The notes below the pieces were generated by a model. That model did no database searches. It was not told the DNA's origin and worked only from the letters and a program-made list of their open reading frames with translations. From a virus, in the IMG/VR virus record IMGVR_UViG_3300031877_000321, positions 1 through 26,629 of that record: 26,629 nt of DNA; one strand, 5' to 3'. Each line of letters opens with the position of its first letter. The first letter of the stretch is position 1. Below are positions 5,218 to 21,118 of this stretch, piece after piece. The position numbers and the translations under genes are program-made.

Positions 5218-5571
5218 ATGAGTCGAACCGCGCCGCTCGAGGTCTGCGCTCGCTGCGAGATGTTCAAGCCAGCTACCGAGATGACGAATGTCTACGCGCG
5301 AGACGCGAACGGGCACGTCGTCTGCCTACGGATCTGCCGAACATGCGCGAGCCCTGTCCTCACATACATCGCGGGCCGCTGGCCTACGATCCCGTCAATC
5401 GATAGCGGCCGATTACTGTCGGCAGGCCTCGCCCTGGTGCTCGTGGTTCTGAATGTGATTTTCGGTATCATCATCGGACCTCCCATGGGTTTCGCTGTCG
5501 TGCTGAGCGGTATCCTGGTCGGTGCGGGGATCCTCGCGGCGGTGGCGGTGTCATGCATCCAGTCATCCTAA
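5218..5571 (+). CDS. Zinc-finger membrane protein
   Basis: A 117-residue protein. The N-terminal half has Cys10-x2-Cys13 and Cys40-x2-Cys43 (with an extra Cys36), consistent with a zinc ribbon or treble-clef-like site. Two hydrophobic segments follow at about 66-86 and 90-112. It starts 2 bases after the preceding stop and overlaps the next gene by 19 bases. No function is recognised. The membrane-tethered zinc ribbon echoes the soluble zinc-ribbon protein at 2247. Confidence 0.6.
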   Translation: MSRTAPLEVCARCEMFKPATEMTNVYARDANGHVVCLRICRTCASPVLTYIAGRWPTIPSIDSGRLLSAGLALVLVVLNVIFGIIIGPPMGFAVVLSGILVGAGILAAVAVSCIQSS

Positions 5572-6005
5572 TCATTCTCCTAGCCGTGGCCCAGGCCAGC
5601 CCAGCGGTCATGGTTACTGTGAGCACGGACCGCGGCTGGTACAGCCCAGGCGAGTCAGTCACAATCCAGATCCAAGTCGCCATGACCGAGAACCCCACGA
5701 ATATGACTTGGCTGTGGCTCTACATCGACAAGCCAGACGGACACAATGCATTGTTCATGCAGCTGAACGCCACGAATCAGACGCTAGTCTGGAATATTCC
5801 AGCCGATGCAGCTGAAGGCGCCTATACAGTCACCGTCACTTGGGATCACCGCTACAGTCAGACAGGCTTCACCGTGGAAGGTCAGCCGATCCCCGAATTT
5901 CCGCTCGCACCCTTGGTGTTGATCTTTGCCACGGCGATTGCGTTTCTTGCCATATCTCGGCGGAAAGCAAGCGCTCGTTCCGAAACTCCTGCCGCTCATC
6001 CCTGA
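5553..6005 (+). CDS. Secreted Ig-like protein with PEF-type C-terminal anchor
   Basis: A 150-residue surface protein. Residues 1-18 form a signal peptide. Residues about 20-110 resemble a macroglobulin-MG2/Ig-like beta domain (DRGWYSPGESVTIQIQV, then EGAYTVTVTWDH), with three N-glycosylation sequons (N50, N72, N75). The C-terminus has IPEF (113-116), a hydrophobic segment (117-134) and RRK (136-138). This is the layout of archaeal PEF-CTERM-like surface proteins, thought to be processed or anchored by archaeosortases. It would therefore be displayed on the infected cell, perhaps for superinfection exclusion, surface modification or egress (inference). Its anchor-coding end overlaps the methyltransferase gene by 80 bases. 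Confidence 0.7.
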   Translation: MHPVILIILLAVAQASPAVMVTVSTDRGWYSPGESVTIQIQVAMTENPTNMTWLWLYIDKPDGHNALFMQLNATNQTLVWNIPADAAEGAYTVTVTWDHRYSQTGFTVEGQPIPEFPLAPLVLIFATAIAFLAISRRKASARSETPAAHP

Positions 6006-6831: not shown

Positions 6832-7306
6832 ATACATCGCCGTGCTCAAGGCGTTCGCTTTCCACTCCGGCGTTCCACTTGCGGAGTATGTGCGCGACAT
6901 CGTGCATGACCACATTCTCCAAAGAGGTGGCGCTTTCCGGGAAAGAGGTGGCGCTTTGAGAGCTCTGATTAACGCCGGAAAGGCGTGGGTCATCGCCTAC
7001 CATGGATGCGTAGCCATCGCGGCAGGTCTGCCGGGAAAGGAGAGACGCGCTGAACTCGAAAAGCTCACTTGGGAAGCTGTGAAGAAAGCGCACGAGTTCT
7101 TCGAAACCGAGGAAGCCGCCAAGAACGCCAAGTATCGAATGATGGCCCTCCAGGCCATCGCGTTGATCACCCGCGCCGAGGAGGAAATACTCGCGGACAT
7201 GGACAAGGCTGAGGTCGATCAGATCGTTCAACGCATCGAGGCGGCACTAAATGTCATGGACAAGGCTGCTGGACAGATTCCTACGAAAGCTGCTCGCAGC
7301 AAATAG
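6779..7306 (+). CDS. Possible small terminase subunit
   Basis: A 175-residue protein directly upstream of and overlapping the large-terminase ATPase gene, the usual place for the small terminase subunit that recognises DNA for packaging. Residues about 8-46 resemble a ribbon-helix-helix or helical DNA-binding start (KLWVRMPPEYIAVLKAFAFH). The rest is Ala/Glu/Lys-rich helix, which fits oligomerisation. Residues about 49-60 carry a duplicated RGGAxRE motif encoded by a tandem DNA repeat. It starts at a TTG inside the end of the methyltransferase gene. The role comes mainly from position; it could instead be another DNA-binding protein. Confidence 0.45.
   Translation: MVRPRKFTDKLWVRMPPEYIAVLKAFAFHSGVPLAEYVRDIVHDHILQRGGAFRERGGALRALINAGKAWVIAYHGCVAIAAGLPGKERRAELEKLTWEAVKKAHEFFETEEAAKNAKYRMMALQAIALITRAEEEILADMDKAEVDQIVQRIEAALNVMDKAAGQIPTKAARSK
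6921..6957 (+). repeat. Tandem 16-bp direct repeat, possible packaging site
   Basis: AAAGAGGTGGCGCTTT occurs exactly at 6921-6936 and again at 6942-6957, a 21-base period (7 codons), inside the putative small-terminase gene. Each copy begins AAAG and ends CTTT. Packaging (pac) sites of several headful phages such as P22 and SPP1 lie in or next to the small-terminase gene, and SPP1 pac includes repeats. A similar role here is inference; a simple coding duplication is the alternative. Confidence 0.4.
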
Positions 7307-8162
7307 AAAGGCCTCGGCGACCGTATCAACGGAAGCATTCGAGCGCCTGAAAGCCGTCGCTGACGAAGGTATCATAGCTTTCTGCGAGAAAGCCTTGGGA
7401 TTCGAACCCACTGAATACCAGATCGCGTTCCTAGAAGAGACAGCGCAGTTTCAGGCTCAATGCTGGAGCCGGCAATCGGGAAAGGATCACACCGCCGCGA
7501 GCAAGCTGCTATGGTATGCGGTTGAGAATAAGGGAGCACAGTACGCGGTCGTCGGGCCAAGTTTCCGACAGAGCAAACTCGTCATCCGGAAGATCAACAA
7601 CTTCCTACAGAACAAGTTGCCCAAGGACATCCCTTGGCCTGAGATCCTGGTCGGTCGAAAGACGCTGAGAACGAAGGTCCCGCTCGTCAACGGCGCGGTG
7701 ATTGAAGCTTATCCCTGCAATCCTGACACGATCCGCGGTCCAACGCTTGACGGGATCTTGGCGACCGAGTTCAACTTCGTGAAAGACGACGAGGAGATGT
7801 ATGACGCTATCCTGTTTACCCTTGGCACGACAGACGGTTTCTTCATTGCAAACTCGACACCGTGGTCCCGCGACCACACCTTCTACAAGATCATGAATGA
7901 CAGAGACTTTGAAGATTTCAAGCGGTTCCACGTGACTTGGAAGGAAGCGCTCGAACCCAAGGGGCCGCTCAAGAAGAACATCCTTGAGAAAATCAAGAAA
8001 CAACTCGCGTCTGATCCTTGGCGTTTTAGACGCGAAATGTGCGCCGAGTGGAGCGAAGATGAGTCCTGCTGGTTGTCGACGACTCTGATCGGAGGCTGCC
8101 AGGACAGTATGCTTGAGATCCGCGTGATCGATAAGCGACATAGCTTCTGGGTTGCAAACTGA
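7251..8162 (+). CDS. terL: Terminase large subunit, ATPase part (split gene)
   Basis: A 303-residue N-terminal half of a phage large terminase, the motor that pumps DNA into the head. Walker A is SRQSGKD (73-79). The Walker B region is DGILATEF (167-174), with Glu173 as the likely catalytic acid but Thr at the usual Asp. The coupling motif is NSTPWSR (201-207). WRFRREMCAEWSEDE near the end is the usual transition to the nuclease domain. The frame then stops at 8162 after a non-matching tail from about IRVIDKRH. The nuclease half is a separate frame from 8335. The ATG at 7251 overlaps the preceding gene by 56 bases. The two products may associate, or one may be lost. Confidence 0.85.
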   Translation: MSWTRLLDRFLRKLLAANRKASATVSTEAFERLKAVADEGIIAFCEKALGFEPTEYQIAFLEETAQFQAQCWSRQSGKDHTAASKLLWYAVENKGAQYAVVGPSFRQSKLVIRKINNFLQNKLPKDIPWPEILVGRKTLRTKVPLVNGAVIEAYPCNPDTIRGPTLDGILATEFNFVKDDEEMYDAILFTLGTTDGFFIANSTPWSRDHTFYKIMNDRDFEDFKRFHVTWKEALEPKGPLKKNILEKIKKQLASDPWRFRREMCAEWSEDESCWLSTTLIGGCQDSMLEIRVIDKRHSFWVAN

Positions 8163-8334: not shown

Positions 8335-8889
8335 TTGGCCGCTGCGATTCCAGAGCTCAAAGGCGACTTCTATGCCGGCTGCGACCTTGCCAAAAAGGAA
8401 GATTTCAGCGTCGTCGCAGTTCTCAGAAGAGATGAGGATGCGTTTCGTCTCATTCACTTGAACGTGTTCCCGCAAGGAACCGAGTATGTCGGTGTGATCA
8501 ACTACCTCAAAGCTCTCTCCGAGCGACTGAGGACGATTCACCGCTTCTTGGTCGACCAAACAGGTGTCGGCGAAGCCGTCATAGAACAGGCGAAAGGCAC
8601 GGTTCCAAACGTCGAAGGCGTCATCCTGACAGCGCCTGCCAAACAAGAGATCCTAGGCTACCTGAAGCTGATGATGCAGGAGAAGCGCGTGCTCTTCCCC
8701 TACGAACTCGATTTCCTGCAAGAACTGAATGTTGAGCGCTTCGAGCTGTCGAAGTCGGGGCAGATCTTGTTCTCCCACCCGAGTGGAACACATGACGACC
8801 GATTCTGGGCATTCGCGTTGGCCGTGTATGCGACCAGGGCTGGCACGAGCGGAAGCATGATTCCGGTCAAACGATCCGATTCACGATAA
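8335..8889 (+). CDS. terL: Terminase large subunit, nuclease part (split gene)
   Basis: A 184-residue C-terminal half of a large terminase. It is the RNase H-fold nuclease that cuts the concatemer at the start and end of packaging. The acidic metal-binding residues are seen in GCDLAKKEDFSVV (Asp17), LVDQTGVGEAV (Asp74) and THDDRFWAFALAVYA (Asp154/155). The TTG at 8335 is the only start codon after the upstream in-frame stop at 8191; the frame is open from 8194. No strong Shine-Dalgarno precedes it. Compared with one-piece terminases, the domain itself is complete. Only the linker to the ATPase part is broken by about 170-200 bases. Confidence 0.85.
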   Translation: MAAAIPELKGDFYAGCDLAKKEDFSVVAVLRRDEDAFRLIHLNVFPQGTEYVGVINYLKALSERLRTIHRFLVDQTGVGEAVIEQAKGTVPNVEGVILTAPAKQEILGYLKLMMQEKRVLFPYELDFLQELNVERFELSKSGQILFSHPSGTHDDRFWAFALAVYATRAGTSGSMIPVKRSDSR

Positions 8890-9229: not shown

Positions 9230-10470
9230 GTATGATGAGTTTTTTCGCTCGAGCGCGGCGTTTCCTAGGGTCTCTCCGCGAGGCAGGCATGATCGTACCT
9301 ATTCACAAAGCCGCAGGCGAGACCGCTCCGATAAGCCTCAGCATCTATCGCGACGCATACCTAAAAGATCCGGCGACCGCAGCCGCGTGCGACTACTTGG
9401 CGGAGCAGGCTGTTGGCGTCGGCATCTTCATCACCTCAGAGAGCCCTCGAGCAAAAGACCTCGCGGACGACTTCAACACTGAAGTCGGCATGGACCAGCT
9501 GCTGATGCAGAACGGGAGGGAATGCGTCTATGCCGGCAATAGCTTCCTCGAGAAAGTCCGTGATGAGAACAAACGCTTGGTGGATCTGAAGCTTCTCCCG
9601 GTCACGAGCATACGGAAGATCAAACGGGACAAGACCACAGGCAAGGTCCAGCAGTATGTGCAGCAACTCGGCGGCGCGACGAACGTGCTGGAGCCCGCGG
9701 ATGTCGTGCATTTCAAGTTTAACGCGCAGGACGGAGAGGCGTTCGGTTCGCCGGTCATCAGGAGCCTACTCGAGAGCTACCAAATCGACGATCGATACAC
9801 GCGTGATAGCTTCCTGAAAATCAAGGCGAAGATGGAGGCTATCATGCCTAAGATCTTCGAGCGGTATGCGGCGCCGAAGAATGTGTGGGTCTTCCCTGGC
9901 GTGAGCGACGCAAAACTGCAGGAATACAAGGCTGCGATCGAGCAGACCCCGCCTGACGAAGATCTTGCGTTCAACCCGAGCGCTCAGGCAACTTTCGACA
10001 TCAAGAGTTTGGTGATTGACCCGCGCGCTCGTTTCGAGGGCTTCGTCAACTACATCGAGTCGCAGTACATCGCGGGCATGCAGACGCCCGTAGTTAAGCT
10101 GTACACGGCCCCGGGGTTCACGGAAGCAAGCGCCACGGTGGCCAAAGAAATTAGCGATCGGAAAATCGCCTTCCTACGCAGGTTCCTCAAGCGTGTCGTC
10201 GAACGTGAGATCTATCGTGACCTGCTCGAGAGCCACGGCATGAAGTGGACGGCTAACCGTGTCACCTTGAACTGGGGAATGGAGCGGCCTGAGCTGAGTT
10301 TCGCGGATATTGTTACGCTCGCGCAGATCAGCGGTCAGACTGGGGTCGCATATGTGACACGGGAGGAGGTCAGGCGCATGCTCCGCAAGTTCGGCTTCGA
10401 AGTCGAAGAGGAACCAGAGCAGCCTGAGCAGCCACCAAGTGAGGAGCAAAAGAGAGGAGAGCCTGAATGA
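9223..10470 (+). CDS. Portal protein
   Basis: A portal protein of the HK97/lambda-like group, about 410 residues. It forms the 12-subunit ring at one head vertex through which DNA enters and leaves. Typical features: an early LKDPATAAACDYLAEQAVGV helix, a central GNSFLEK region after NGRECVYA, RLVDLKLLP, a DVVHFKFN strand, and the long helical stretch around DDRYTRDSFLKIKAKMEAIM. A Glu/Pro-rich tail ends the protein. Position right after terminase and before the capsid protease agrees. The frame opens at TTG 9223; GGTGAG at 9225-9230 suggests the true start may be the ATG at 9235 or 9232. It overlaps the protease gene by 4 bases (ATGA). Confidence 0.85.
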   Translation: MVSMMSFFARARRFLGSLREAGMIVPIHKAAGETAPISLSIYRDAYLKDPATAAACDYLAEQAVGVGIFITSESPRAKDLADDFNTEVGMDQLLMQNGRECVYAGNSFLEKVRDENKRLVDLKLLPVTSIRKIKRDKTTGKVQQYVQQLGGATNVLEPADVVHFKFNAQDGEAFGSPVIRSLLESYQIDDRYTRDSFLKIKAKMEAIMPKIFERYAAPKNVWVFPGVSDAKLQEYKAAIEQTPPDEDLAFNPSAQATFDIKSLVIDPRARFEGFVNYIESQYIAGMQTPVVKLYTAPGFTEASATVAKEISDRKIAFLRRFLKRVVEREIYRDLLESHGMKWTANRVTLNWGMERPELSFADIVTLAQISGQTGVAYVTREEVRRMLRKFGFEVEEEPEQPEQPPSEEQKRGEPE

Positions 10471-11388: not shown

Positions 11389-12783
11389 ATGAGTTACGGT
11401 AAGGCGCCAGTCGAACGCGAATGGGATGCCGACGCTGCTGACGGACGACTGCGCTCCTGGGCAGGCGGACCAGAGAAGGAGAATGTGGACTGGGCGAAGT
11501 ACCGTGAAGGCTTCGCCTGGTACGACGCCGAGAACGCTGAGGTTTTCGGCGCCTACAAGCTCCCGCACCACGACATAATCGACAGCCGACTGAATGTCGT
11601 CTGGCGTGGTGTGGCAGCAGCAGGCGCTGTGGTCCAAGGCGGACGAGGCGGAGCCGACATCCCCGGCGCCGACATGGCCGCCGTCAAAACGCATCTGGCC
11701 CGCCACTATGAGGAGTTCGAGCGTACAGCGCCTTGGGAGCAGCGTGCTTCGGAGGCGGTTCAAGAGAGCGAGAAAGAGCCTCTCGAGAAACCTCAGGAAA
11801 AGGAGGTGGAAGAGAAAATGCCGGAAACCATCACTGAAGGGAAGGCTAGCGCAGGCAAAGGGATCGTTGCAGCTGAGGAAGTTGCCATGATGGACAACAA
11901 CCCACGCAGACAGCTACGTGAAAGCATCGTCAAGCGCTTGAAGGCGGGAAGCCTCAAGGAACAGTGGACCGCGCCTATAGGACTGACACCTGCGCCCGCG
12001 AGCCGACTCAGGAACTTCATCATCGTGAGCGAGATTCTCGTCGGCGCAGCAGGCGACACCGTCACCGTGCCTTATGTCAAGGACTTTGATCTGGACATTC
12101 TCGCGAATGTCGGTGACGCTCTAACTCCTAAGACGGGCCTGCTTGGCACCGTGACCACGACACTCAAGGAAGCCGCAGCAACCACGAATGTGCCGTACGC
12201 GGACATCGAGAAGATGAGTGAGCAGGCCATCGCCGAGCTCGAAGCAAAGTTCGAGCAAGCAGCCTACCGAGCAGAAGACAAGGAACTTGTCAATCTCCTG
12301 TATGCTGACAGCGACGTTCCTGAAGTCGACCACAGCGCCGACGACCCAGCAGACTTCAAGGCAGACTACATCGCGCAAGCACTCGGCAAGATGCTCGCGC
12401 AAGGCAAGGAAGTCAACTTCCTCGACTGCGTCCTAGTGATCAGCGCGAGCATGTATGAGAAACTGCTCGAAGACATTGCGGGCACACAGAGCCTCGCGTT
12501 TGCTAAACCAGACGCGATCCAAGACGGGCAACTCAGGCGACTGATGGGCGTCAATATCTCCATCAGCAACTATCTCCCGAGCGGAGGTACGCCCGCCAAA
12601 TACAGCGCCTACCTGATCCACCACAACGCAGAGGTTCTTACGCCGAAGCGTGAGATACTCATTGAGACTGAGCGTGACACGCAAAACCGAAAAGTCAAGG
12701 TGACAGGCTCGCATACATACGGCCGCGTCGAGCTCGACAACAAAGCCGCCGTCGAGATCAAGACAGCATTCACAACGCTGTAG
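11389..12783 (+). CDS. HK97-fold major capsid protein with N-terminal extension
   Basis: A 464-residue frame of two parts. Residues about 1-118 (REWDADAADGRLRSWA, then WAKYREGFAWYD, then FGAYKLPHHD) match a domain usually found at the end of phage head proteases, not in capsid proteins. Residues 144-464 look like a 321-residue HK97-fold capsid protein. An ATG at 11818 with AGGAGGTG at 11801-11808 (9-base spacer) would start the capsid protein alone and is very likely used. The ATG at 11389 has no good site. The frame is open upstream to 11305, overlapping the protease gene. The extension is then made either by +1 shifting from the protease or not at all. Confidence 0.8.
   Translation: MSYGKAPVEREWDADAADGRLRSWAGGPEKENVDWAKYREGFAWYDAENAEVFGAYKLPHHDIIDSRLNVVWRGVAAAGAVVQGGRGGADIPGADMAAVKTHLARHYEEFERTAPWEQRASEAVQESEKEPLEKPQEKEVEEKMPETITEGKASAGKGIVAAEEVAMMDNNPRRQLRESIVKRLKAGSLKEQWTAPIGLTPAPASRLRNFIIVSEILVGAAGDTVTVPYVKDFDLDILANVGDALTPKTGLLGTVTTTLKEAAATTNVPYADIEKMSEQAIAELEAKFEQAAYRAEDKELVNLLYADSDVPEVDHSADDPADFKADYIAQALGKMLAQGKEVNFLDCVLVISASMYEKLLEDIAGTQSLAFAKPDAIQDGQLRRLMGVNISISNYLPSGGTPAKYSAYLIHHNAEVLTPKREILIETERDTQNRKVKVTGSHTYGRVELDNKAAVEIKTAFTTL
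11801..11820 (+). promoter_or_regulatory. Internal ribosome-binding site and start of capsid protein
   Basis: AGGAGGTG at 11801-11808, nine bases, then ATG at 11818-11820, all in the middle of a long open frame. It is one of the strongest Shine-Dalgarno sequences in the window and sits exactly between the protease-type domain and the capsid domain. Capsid protein is needed in hundreds of copies, so independent initiation here would explain how it is made in excess over the upstream part. Confidence 0.65.
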
Positions 12784-12873
12784 ACCCTTCCCCAATCCTG
12801 ATCGTTGCATCTGAACCTCTTAGACCCGATTATCTTACGGGAGTAGCGTCAGCTTTGCGAAGAGTGAAAGCAC

Positions 12874-14340: not shown

Positions 14341-14603
14341 TCGTGGTACTGGAGAATATTCGCCCCGGCTCGTTCAATGTCAACGCCGTTGACGCGAAAC
14401 TTCGCAAGAAGTTTCCGTCCCTGCTCGGCTGGAGTTACGGCTTCCTAGATGATGCTTTGACGCTTGAGTTCCCAAATTCCGAAGTCGAGACCGTCATTGA
14501 GGACAAGATCTCCGATGCGCTCTCAAAAGTGAGGGCGGACTATCCGGATGCCAGACACCGCGAGAGCCTACTCAAGGGCGGAGCTGTACGTTGGGCCACC
14601 TGA
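14337..14603 (+). CDS. Small hypothetical protein
   Basis: An 88-residue protein. An N-terminal strand (MIVVLENIRPGSFNVNAVDA) leads into a short helix (AKLRKKFPSLLGW), a strand, and a charged C-terminal helix (VIEDKISDALSKVRADY). ATGA at 14337-14340 couples it to the preceding gene. The frame stays open upstream to 14199, but that part is antisense to reading-frame logic and overlaps the real gene at 14050, so the ATG at 14337 is chosen. No family is recognised. Confidence 0.55.
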   Translation: MIVVLENIRPGSFNVNAVDAKLRKKFPSLLGWSYGFLDDALTLEFPNSEVETVIEDKISDALSKVRADYPDARHRESLLKGGAVRWAT

Positions 14604-18778: not shown

Positions 18779-19225
18779 ATGACCGATCAGACTACGCCTC
18801 GTGAGAGCGTACGCGCCGCATTCAAGACCGTGCTTGACGCCGCGAACCTAGGCGTCACAGTCTACGATCGACGAGCCTCCGAGGGTGAAGAGCAACGGAG
18901 TGTCGTTCTCACCGTAGTTTCGGGGTCGAATCGCAGCCCAGGCGTGGGCTTGCGTAAGAGCACGAGCAAGCGCGGGCTCGAGGAGTGGTTCAGGCTCCAA
19001 GTCGACTGCTACTATGACGACGAAACCGAGGTCGGCAAGCTGGCCGATAAGGTGGAGCAGGCGCTAATGGATGCGATCGACACCCTGCGAGCCACCCACG
19101 ATATCCATGACCTGCGAAAGGTTATGGACACGGACTCGGTCCCAGCGGGGGCTACGGTGGGTAGCACGCTGACCCGCGTCCTGATGGACTTCACATTCTA
19201 CACGCACCGCGAGTTGACAGCCTAA
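18779..19225 (+). CDS. Probable tail terminator / completion protein
   Basis: A 148-residue alpha/beta protein: an N-terminal helix (RESVRAAFKTVLDAANLGVT), a strand with VVLTVVSG, an EEWFRLQVDCYYDD strand, a helix (KLADKVEQALMDAIDTL) and a final strand (LTRVLMDFTFYTHREL). This order is usual for tail terminator proteins (gpU-like fold), which cap the tail tube and join it to the head. Position next to a gp10-like protein and two genes before the tail tube agrees. It begins just after the divergent minus-strand operon. Confidence 0.5.
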   Translation: MTDQTTPRESVRAAFKTVLDAANLGVTVYDRRASEGEEQRSVVLTVVSGSNRSPGVGLRKSTSKRGLEEWFRLQVDCYYDDETEVGKLADKVEQALMDAIDTLRATHDIHDLRKVMDTDSVPAGATVGSTLTRVLMDFTFYTHRELTA

Positions 19226-19575
19226 TGCCCGGTTGGTCCGTTCAGGTCCTTGAAAACACGGTCACGCCTCTACTCGATAAGGTTGCCTCGCAACTTCAGG
19301 AGGCTGACCGTCTTAGTCTACAGTTCGGCGCGACCGCAGATTACGCACCGTTTGTTGAATTTGGTACATCCCGCATGGTAGCGAGGAGTTTCATCCGGGC
19401 CTCTCTGGACGCAAACCAAGAGAGGATACTTGACGCAATCCTGACCGGGGCTGTGAATGGAAGTATGCTTCAAGAGTTAGAAGTTTTGGGACAAGTGCTA
19501 GAGGACTACGCCAAGAGCATCGTAGTAGTCCGCACGGGATATCTACGGAGCACGATCTTCCATCAGGTAAGTTGA
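19225..19575 (+). CDS. HK97 gp10-like neck protein, motif order changed
   Basis: A 116-residue protein with DYAPFVEFGTSRMVARSFIR (39-58), the hallmark of HK97 gp10-like neck or tail-completion proteins. The family's other hallmark, a TG-x-L-R-S strand, is present too (RTGYLRSTIF, about 103-112), but at the C-terminus. In the usual order it precedes the EFGT motif. It starts at the last base of the preceding gene's stop (TAATG). The altered order suggests a circular permutation. Confidence 0.65.
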   Translation: MPGWSVQVLENTVTPLLDKVASQLQEADRLSLQFGATADYAPFVEFGTSRMVARSFIRASLDANQERILDAILTGAVNGSMLQELEVLGQVLEDYAKSIVVVRTGYLRSTIFHQVS

Positions 19576-19752: not shown

Positions 19753-20193
19753 TTGGTCAAGTACGATGCTGACGAAGTTGATGTCCGCATAGGCACCAGC
19801 GCTGCAAACGTTGGCTCGGCGCCAGCGCTAACGAACCTTCAGAGCGTCGAGTACGACCCCGGCCAAACCTTCGACCAGCCCGCGGTCGGCATTGGTTCGC
19901 GGCAAACTGAAGTCCATGAGAAGCTGATCAAGCCGAAGGGCACCCTGAAGCGGTGGCATGATGAGGTCGCGGTCGTCTGCGGCGGCACGGGCACGCTCGA
20001 GAAGAATGTTGGCGCCTTCACGACGGGAGCATTGACGCCGCTGTACATAGAGATCAAGAACAAGACCACGAACAAGAAGGTTACGCTCGCGAAGTGCATG
20101 GGCCCGTACGCGAAGACCTTGGACAGCCCGGAAGGCTACATTGAGGAAACCTGGGACTTCTTCTTCGAAAGCCTAAGCGAATCCGAGAGCTGA
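19753..20193 (+). CDS. Major tail tube protein
   Basis: A 146-residue beta-rich protein in the tail-tube position before the tail chaperone and tape measure. Features: an early DVRIGTSAANVGSAPALTNL, VEYDPGQ, a glycine-rich turn, LYIEIKNKTTNKKV, and a final strand pair (YIEETWDFFFESL). It would polymerise around the tape measure to form the non-contractile tail tube. The TTG at 19753 is set by AGGAGGA at 19736-19742 with a 10-base spacer. No sheath gene follows, which fits a siphovirus. Confidence 0.7.
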   Translation: MVKYDADEVDVRIGTSAANVGSAPALTNLQSVEYDPGQTFDQPAVGIGSRQTEVHEKLIKPKGTLKRWHDEVAVVCGGTGTLEKNVGAFTTGALTPLYIEIKNKTTNKKVTLAKCMGPYAKTLDSPEGYIEETWDFFFESLSESES

Positions 20194-20239: not shown

Positions 20240-20548
20240 ATGAAAACAAGATCCCCGACCAGACCGGAGACTGAACCCTCTATTTCTTCCAATGCTAGTC
20301 CCCCCAGCGGTAGCGAGGCCGGCGGTGAGCCCTTCGCCTCGCTGGGACTGATCATCAGTTGCCGACCAAGCGATGTCGACCTAATCTGTAGAGTCATCCA
20401 AGCCTGCGGCGGCAAGCTGGTTTTTCAAACCACCACTAACGGCTCCCTGTTCGTCTTGCGTGAGGCTCAGATCGAGCGGATCCTGCAAGGTGACCTCAGC
20501 GAACTCGTTGAGATCATGAAGAAGAAAGAGAGGAGGAGTGAGAAGTGA
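20240..20548 (+). CDS. Small tail-region protein
   Basis: A 102-residue protein. A Pro/Ser-rich, probably disordered N-terminus (about 1-33) is followed by a compact domain (LGLIISCRPSDVDLICRVIQ, KLVFQTTTNGSLFVL, a helix EAQIERILQGDLSELVEI) and a lysine-rich end. It ends with GTGA overlap to the chaperone gene at 20545, so the two are coupled. The domain is in the place where some phages have an extra tail assembly protein; no family is recognised. Confidence 0.55.
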   Translation: MKTRSPTRPETEPSISSNASPPSGSEAGGEPFASLGLIISCRPSDVDLICRVIQACGGKLVFQTTTNGSLFVLREAQIERILQGDLSELVEIMKKKERRSEK

Positions 20549-20910
20549 GCACAGAAGAGAGAAGAAAGGAGATCCAACAAATTCGTGAAGAACACAAACA
20601 TCTCGCAGAAAAACTGGTCCTCGGCACCGAATACTCCGAGACATTGACGGTCTACGGAAAGGACAGGCAACCGCATGAAGTCACCGTGCACGCGTTGAGC
20701 GACGGTGAGTTCCTCGCAGCTGCCAAGGAAGCTCACGCTAACTTAGCCGACTTGAAAGGCCCTGAAACGATCTTGGCCAACATGGACCTGATGATGCTTC
20801 TGGCCGCGAAATCAACGCGTATCCCTGACATTCGCGACCAACTAATCCAAGGTGAAACCTACAAAATCGCTAGGAAAGCGCTGGAGATCTCGCAGCCCCC
20901 AAAATCCTAG
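20545..20910 (+). CDS. Tail assembly chaperone, short form (gpG-like)
   Basis: A 121-residue protein: a charged N-terminal helix, a beta part (ETLTVYGKDRQPHEVTVHAL) and a helical C-terminal half (LMMLLAAKSTRIPDIRDQLI). It sits immediately before the tape measure, as in lambda and most siphoviruses, where the short chaperone coats the tape measure protein during tail assembly. GTG start at 20545 overlaps the preceding stop. A slippery heptamer lies 4 bases before its stop codon, so part of the ribosomes would make the longer form. Confidence 0.7.
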   Translation: MSTEERRKEIQQIREEHKHLAEKLVLGTEYSETLTVYGKDRQPHEVTVHALSDGEFLAAAKEAHANLADLKGPETILANMDLMMLLAAKSTRIPDIRDQLIQGETYKIARKALEISQPPKS

Positions 20911-21053
20911 ACCGGTTCACACGCGGCGTCTATTCGGCGCCGCTGGAAGTTCTCACAGCGCACTTCCATCTGACATTCGACCAGATCCGAGCGTTGACGC
21001 CGCTCCAGAAAGCCTGGCTGCTGAAAGTCTACTCGAAACCGACGCGAAAATGA
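20545..21053 (+). CDS. Tail assembly chaperone, frameshifted long form (gpGT-like)
   Basis: A -1 shift at C-CCA-AAA (20898-20904) would take ribosomes from the short chaperone into a frame that is open from 20874 to the stop at 21051-21053. The extension reads ILDRFTRGVYSAPLEVLTAH, then LTFDQIRALTPLQKAWLLKV, giving a product of about 169 residues. The extension has no start codon with a ribosome-binding site of its own, and its sequence looks clearly coding. This is the classic gpG/gpGT arrangement. A large overlapping frame at 20852-21094 is a shadow. Confidence 0.7.
20898..20904 (+). other. Slippery heptamer for programmed -1 frameshift
   Basis: CCCAAAA placed as C-CCA-AAA in the zero frame, the exact X-XXY-YYZ form. 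After a double-tRNA slip the reading becomes CCC-AAA-ATC-CTA. The zero-frame stop follows 4 bases later. The -1 frame is open from 20874, so the heptamer falls inside the overlap as required. Whether a stimulatory RNA structure follows (the GC-rich stretch from about 20910) needs folding. Confidence 0.7.
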
Positions 21054-21118
21054 GGCGTGATTCTTCTTGCGACTGTTCCTCGCAGCAGACCTAGCCTTGG
21101 CGCTGAAGGTGAGATGAG

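Follow-up and report, generated by a model that had tools for sequence, protein, structure and literature searches.

The stretch analysed here, called the window, is an IMG/VR virus record of 26,629 bases (IMGVR_UViG_3300031877_000321) that carries tailed-virus genes of the large terminase (TerL), portal, tape measure and neck families. Two overlapping open reading frames (ORFs), which we call G and T, sit between a tail tube gene, so named by its position, and the tape measure gene; this is the usual G/GT place of tailed phages. We propose that they encode a lambda-type G/GT tail assembly chaperone pair that would be made through a -1 frameshift at C CCA AAA, a reading to which we give a probability of about 0.9 on the grounds of sequence comparison. 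The locus is composed as follows.

19225..19575, + strand: HK97 gp10-like neck or tail completion protein (phrog_5, E=2.2e-12; PF04883 slightly below the cut-off)
19753..20193, + strand: candidate tail tube protein, named by position
20240..20548, + strand: small conserved ORF of unassigned function, 5' of G and overlapping its start by 4 bases
20545..20910, + strand: G, the zero-frame likely tail assembly chaperone, 121 amino acids, GTG start, TAG stop at 20908-20910
20874..21053, + strand: T, the -1 frame open stretch; the addition after the slip would be 49 codons (20904-21050), giving a GT of 169 amino acids
20898..20904, + strand: putative slippery heptamer C CCA AAA, with CCA in the P site and AAA in the A site, re-pairing as CCC AAA
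21119..23758, + strand: tape measure protein, directly 3' of G/T (PHROGs tape measure families, best E=2.3e-28)

We found both frames where a first-pass annotation, made from the letters of the window, had placed them, with the zero frame ending at 20910 and the -1 frame open from 20874. That annotation had also described the extension as lacking its own start and, in agreement, the first ATG, GTG or TTG of the T frame is at 20994, past most of the conserved T core. The heptamer lies in the overlap and in phase X_XXY_YYZ (window codons CAG CCC CCA AAA TCC TAG), as had been noticed, except that 3 bases, being the single codon TCC, separate it from the G stop and not the 4 that had been given. 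On its + strand the window has a single CCCAAAA, against 1.11 expected under a dinucleotide model; since about one is expected by chance in such a contig, only its place and phase count. Across 25 ORFs with 6932 codons, X_XXY_YYZ stands in phase 15 times, and when the 12 overlap codons were recoded synonymously in 100,000 trials, any in-phase heptamer arose in 4.4% of them and C CCA AAA in 1.5%. The recoding test used four loci, and the chance of a wobble C followed by CCA and AAA, given the amino acids, was 0.015 in the window, 0.055 in L086, 0.029 in L005 and 0.092 in L106; the product of these four chances, with one locus for each of four groups, is about 2e-6 if independence and the same amino acids are assumed. 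A GGAG is found 11 nt 5' of the heptamer in the window and is not conserved at that place in the other loci tabulated.

The arrangement recurs in relatives taken from IMG/VR contigs, which together with the window make 12 loci, 11 of them distinct. In 11/11 distinct loci G is succeeded by a -1 frame T that lacks an upstream start, and 10/11 have an in-phase heptamer of either kind, which by comparison supports the programmed -1 frameshift that had been suggested for the tail chaperone. The exact C CCA AAA is present in nine (window, L086, L102, L103, L005, L106, L107, L109 = L110, and L111), L011 carries C CCT TTT and L105 has none. The heptamer is kept although the identity of G drops to about 30%, and the codon preceding it encodes Pro, Gly, Thr or Ile, ending in C in every case; an alignment of relatives, proposed as a check on whether the heptamer is kept while flanking codons vary, thus gave the expected outcome (9/11 exact). 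The alignment of G from nine loci (L105 and L011 excluded) has 120 filled columns. The amino acid is invariant in 21 of them, 12 of which are at least four-fold degenerate, and among those 12 a single codon is used throughout only at the heptamer Pro. The heptamer Lys is AAA in 9/9, but two-fold degenerate Tyr and Asp columns are equally invariant, so that AAA alone is not striking.

In the T frame, none of the ten distinct loci having the heptamer shows ATG, GTG or TTG 5' of it. Four of them (L106, L107, L109, L111) have this frame open for 63-89 codons 5' of the site, where about 2.3-3.7 starts would be expected and 0 are seen. T also conserves the motifs YS.P(L/I)E and LTPLQ. In T, counted by codon position 1/2/3, the window and L086 differ at 24/15/26 nucleotides, the window and L005 at 19/18/32, and L086 and L005 at 23/19/31; the excess at third positions, present in all three pairs and slight in the first, indicates that T is under protein selection.

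L005 (17 kb, syntenic) was reached via the capsid protein, its G and T being 33% and 56% identical to those of the window, with the junction GGC ACC CCA AAA CCA GCT TGA and T in the -1 frame. L086 was reached via the tape measure protein (G 43%, T 45%; junction GGC CCA AAA CCC), and L011 via the capsid N-terminal domain, in a search where the best 80 of 100 relatives were kept; its G and T are remote (T 35% identical in alignment A9; junction ACC CCT TTT). A joined three-protein scan brought in L102, L103, L105, L106, L107, L109, L110 and L111. Profile searches matched G and T separately, and frame-shifted, in 10 records (2/6 in one search, 8/8 in another). Left out of the counts were L001, which is the window, and L083-L085, L087, L101, L104 and L108, each a part of the L005, L006 or L086 contigs; L006 was not counted separately, being identical to L005 across the 641 bases compared, and L110 was merged with L109, which has the same junction and T. 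Direct tblastn of G against phages gave no match, scans of viral contigs with G alone and with the tape measure protein alone gave no relatives, an earlier joined-protein scan returned only the contigs of L005 and L006, and hidden Markov models of G and T run over 96 loci recovered only already-known loci at E below 0.01.

L015, L033 and L045 were considered as more distant cases and dropped, having no clear G/T homology. In L045 (13300-15000) a chaperone-like frame lies 5' of the tape measure gene, with an extension that by eye seems to be in the +1 and not the -1 frame.

The genes around G/T keep their place as well. The small ORF at 20240..20548 has counterparts in the same place in L005 and L086 (45-47% identity), the candidate tail tube protein has same-place homologues there (34% in L005, 39% in L086) and no PHROGs match, and homologues of the tape measure gene come after G/T in both contigs. 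The window gave no Rfam match and contains no tRNA.

The identity of G was approached through its fold. An AlphaFold model built from four sequences (predicted local distance difference test, pLDDT, of 81) has a beta hairpin and helices, and Foldseek ranks 2OB9 (tail assembly chaperone of HK97) and 3KLU (YqbN) highest in the PDB, both as weak matches (E=0.1 and 0.3). A second structural comparison gave Z of 7.2 and 5.4 for these two and 7.4 for an uncharacterised Bacillus protein (3FGX), and in BFVD a 'Pre-tape measure frameshift protein G' ranks second (probability 0.99, E=0.014). By sequence, G of the window matches the XkdN-like phrog_389 weakly (E=0.1) and G of L105 the tail assembly chaperone phrog_14268 (E=2.2e-4). 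T is modelled as four short helices (pLDDT 74). The fold and family matches, together with the position, make it likely that G is a tail assembly chaperone.

If so, most ribosomes would translate G (121 amino acids) and terminate at 20908. A smaller share, whose tRNA-Pro is paired with CCA and tRNA-Lys with AAA, would move back by one base to CCC AAA and read T in the -1 frame to 21053, yielding GT of 169 amino acids. By analogy with lambda, G may form a coat on the tape measure protein, while GT may recruit tail tube subunits through its T domain. The slippage with its rate, like the roles assigned to G and GT, is our inference.

Several observations weigh against this proposal. L105 has both frames, with a junction of GAC CCT AAA CCC that gives a TAA when read in the -1 frame (L105:6390-6430), and no other in-phase heptamer was found in its overlap. 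G and T of the window have no good match to any Pfam or PHROGs family. Two scans of genome contigs, with portal and TerL alignments, found no provirus or relative, and folding, which did not cover pseudoknots, found no downstream RNA structure conserved across loci. Concerning L105, relatives with the same two frames and no slippery sequence had been named as the finding that would speak against frameshifting; L105 is one such locus, while the other 10 of 11 are not. Its T is intact 3' of the site and close to that of L102, whereas its G is only 43-44% identical to G of L086, L102 and L103. The site may thus lie near a recombination point, so that L105 would be a recombination product; otherwise the base may be an assembly error, or the heptamer may have been lost naturally in L105.

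Folding of the RNA 3' of the site, which the first-pass annotation had also proposed, did reveal a hairpin in the window (20923..20943, + strand; 8 bp, GCGGCGUC/GGCGCCGC) that starts 18 nt 3' of the heptamer and is a possible, unsupported stimulator, but it is not conserved in relatives. The 80 nt 3' of the site in the window have a z-score of -2.35, with 5/200 shuffles equally stable. For the first 80 nt of the relatives, z is 1.21 in L086, 0.28 in L005, 0.51 in L011, between -0.99 and 0.34 in L102, L106, L109 and L111, -1.72 in L103 and -2.84 in L107, and consensus folding over ten loci gives -0.94 kcal/mol. The usual spacing between heptamer and stimulator is 5-9 nt according to the excerpts of PMC8211752, and that of the window hairpin is longer. 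A conserved stimulatory stem-loop 5-9 nt after the site was rejected because of the mixed z-scores and the consensus energy.

Among the other explanations, the one that survives best is that T is translated separately, by re-initiation or translational coupling at a start of its own after the G stop. L005 has an in-frame TTG at 10350 shortly after the heptamer, L011 an ATG at 14597 past the G stop, the gene in the comparable place of the Nitrososphaera provirus Pro-Nvie1 has as its annotated start a GTG that shares bases with the stop, and in L105, with its broken heptamer, an own start would be the remaining route to T. However, the first start in the T frame comes late in the window (20994, with most of the T core already past) and in L086 (5884), and the positions of these starts are not conserved while the heptamer is. 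We thus regard separate translation as unlikely, though it is the alternative to be taken most seriously.

Slippage of RNA polymerase on the CCCCCAAAA run, adding a base to some transcripts, would give the same fusion, and the window does carry a C5A4 run. Polymerase slippage usually needs runs longer than C3-C4 plus A4. In most relatives the run is no more than C3-C4 and A4, and the codon phase is kept, which makes this alternative very improbable. It is even harder to see the frame break as a sequencing error, a pseudogene or a coincidence with a chance heptamer: one CCCAAAA is to be expected on the + strand of a contig like this, but 11 distinct loci, which come from several metagenomes, share the break and its direction, and the third-position bias of T in all three pairs contradicts a pseudogene or an error. 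A downstream product in the +1 frame, open in the window as an ORF of 80 amino acids (20852-21094), can be dismissed with similar ease, for L005 and L086 have stops in that frame and the T homology lies in the -1 frame only.

For the host, the portal protein had a sole match among 50,697 phage records, the Nitrososphaera provirus Pro-Nvie1 (FR725450; 23.4%, E=3e-10), and in a single comparison the capsid protein matched the same provirus with 25% identity over 141 residues (E=2e-9). Against an archaeal host, the TerL matches are mostly bacterial phages, with some haloviruses, and most matches of the protease come from Bacillus phages and their relatives, with a Methanofastidiosa virus besides. 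The portal of L112 gave no match against phages, nor that of the window against plasmids. The earlier suggestion of an archaeal virus is therefore favoured by the portal and capsid relatives in Pro-Nvie1, a support that is indirect and leaves the host unproven; on these similarities we consider an archaeal host probable.

Three of the viruses encode secreted-looking, membrane-anchored proteins whose tail is made up of IPEFP, a transmembrane segment and basic residues (window 5553-6005; L005:138-572; L117:4766-5296). This IPEFP-type tail resembles an archaeal surface-sorting signal, with no sorting family confirmed: NCBIfam and Pfam scans of the surface-like proteins for such a signal gave no match to a family of that kind, NCBIfam having covered two of the three IPEFP proteins.

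Pro-Nvie1 is alike in its portal and capsid relatives, and also in a small gene, placed after a tail protein gene, which has C CCT TTG in phase close to its stop. It differs in that this small gene has no detectable homology to G (hhalign probability 0.15%) and the second coding sequence has a GTG at the overlap. At 12237-12826 of this provirus (L100), the next coding sequence is in the -1 frame with the GTG overlapping the stop, a possible site of frameshift or coupling.

The -1 frameshift of double-stranded DNA (dsDNA) phage tail chaperones was reportedly described by Xu et al. in 2004. In lambda, the heptamer is G GGA AAG. The locus studied here resembles lambda G/GT in its overlapping frames before the tape measure gene, the -1 direction, an X_XXY_YYZ heptamer near the end of G and a T without a start; unlike lambda, the heptamer is C CCA AAA, the probable host is archaeal and the window protein has no detected sequence similarity to a named chaperone. 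The excerpts of PMC5009743 describe lambda gpG/gpGT and the -1 frameshift as general in dsDNA phage tail chaperones and, together with those of PMC8211752, list predicted G/GT frameshifts in the haloviruses HVTV-1, HCTV-1, -2 and -5; Hardycor1 has a G GGA AAT site (excerpt of PMC7911831). The present case is similar to these five as they appear in the excerpts, being archaeal tailed viruses (here with a probable host) with X_XXY_YYZ at the end of G and a prediction from sequence, and differs in its C CCA AAA, in capsid genes resembling those of a thaumarchaeal provirus and in the comparison over 11 distinct loci. In the HF1-group haloviruses, two small coding sequences likewise lie between tail tube and tape measure genes, but a +1 shift would be needed and no conventional slippery site was seen, as given in the excerpt of PMC7230728.

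Besides the halovirus predictions, the sole archaeal -1 case reported in the excerpts of PMC8211752 is fucA1 of Saccharolobus solfataricus (A AAA AAT), experimentally proven. It shares with our locus a -1 heptamer and an archaeal ribosome (here again with a probable host), and differs in being a proven case in a cellular gene, while ours is a viral structural chaperone predicted from sequence. The statement that clear archaeal cases are far fewer is thus fair as far as these excerpts go; halovirus predictions exist nonetheless. Our literature search found no report of a C CCA AAA site in this virus group, and neither PMC10848311 nor PMC11705971, which deal with viruses of Bathyarchaeia and archaeal proviruses, contains any word that starts with 'frameshift'. 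In E. coli, Y_YY.A_AA.R is counted among the shift-prone exceptions, C_CC.A_AA.G reaching up to 54% with a strong pseudoknot (excerpt of PMC4066793).

Since the G/GT frameshift was already known in phages and predicted in haloviruses, what our study appears to add, with good support from the aligned loci, is the conservation of such a predicted frameshift in a virus group outside the haloviruses. Proven archaeal -1 frameshifting is limited to one fucosidase gene and the viral cases are halovirus predictions, according to the same excerpts, hence the set of loci matters. Its interest resides in a group with a probable archaeal host and natural variants of the site: the conserved form (9/11), the variant C CCT TTT and the breakage C CCT AAA constitute a ready test set for what archaeal ribosomes require in order to slip. 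More tentatively, and at somewhat less than even odds, a non-halophilic archaeal (Thermoproteota-type) group of tailed viruses may frameshift at a bare C CCA AAA with no conserved stimulator, in which case the heptamer and its near context would suffice for archaeal ribosomes and L105 would be a loss-of-site variant.

Elsewhere in the window, the large terminase is split into an ATPase ORF (7251-8162) and a nuclease ORF (8335-8889) with a gap of 172 bases. It is likewise split in L002, L005, L008, L010, L018 and L097, where overlap and frame vary, and is a single unbroken ORF in L011. The close relative L002 has a zinc-ribbon-like ORF with CxxC...CxxC (768-1052) between its terminase ORFs, and no such ORF was seen in the window. 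In the product of the capsid gene (11389-12783), the capsid domain is fused to an additional N-terminal domain of some 115 residues. This N-terminal domain has a 56% match within a feature called 'head maturation protease' of the Thermus phage Riverbug, and it is widespread across IMG/VR contigs.
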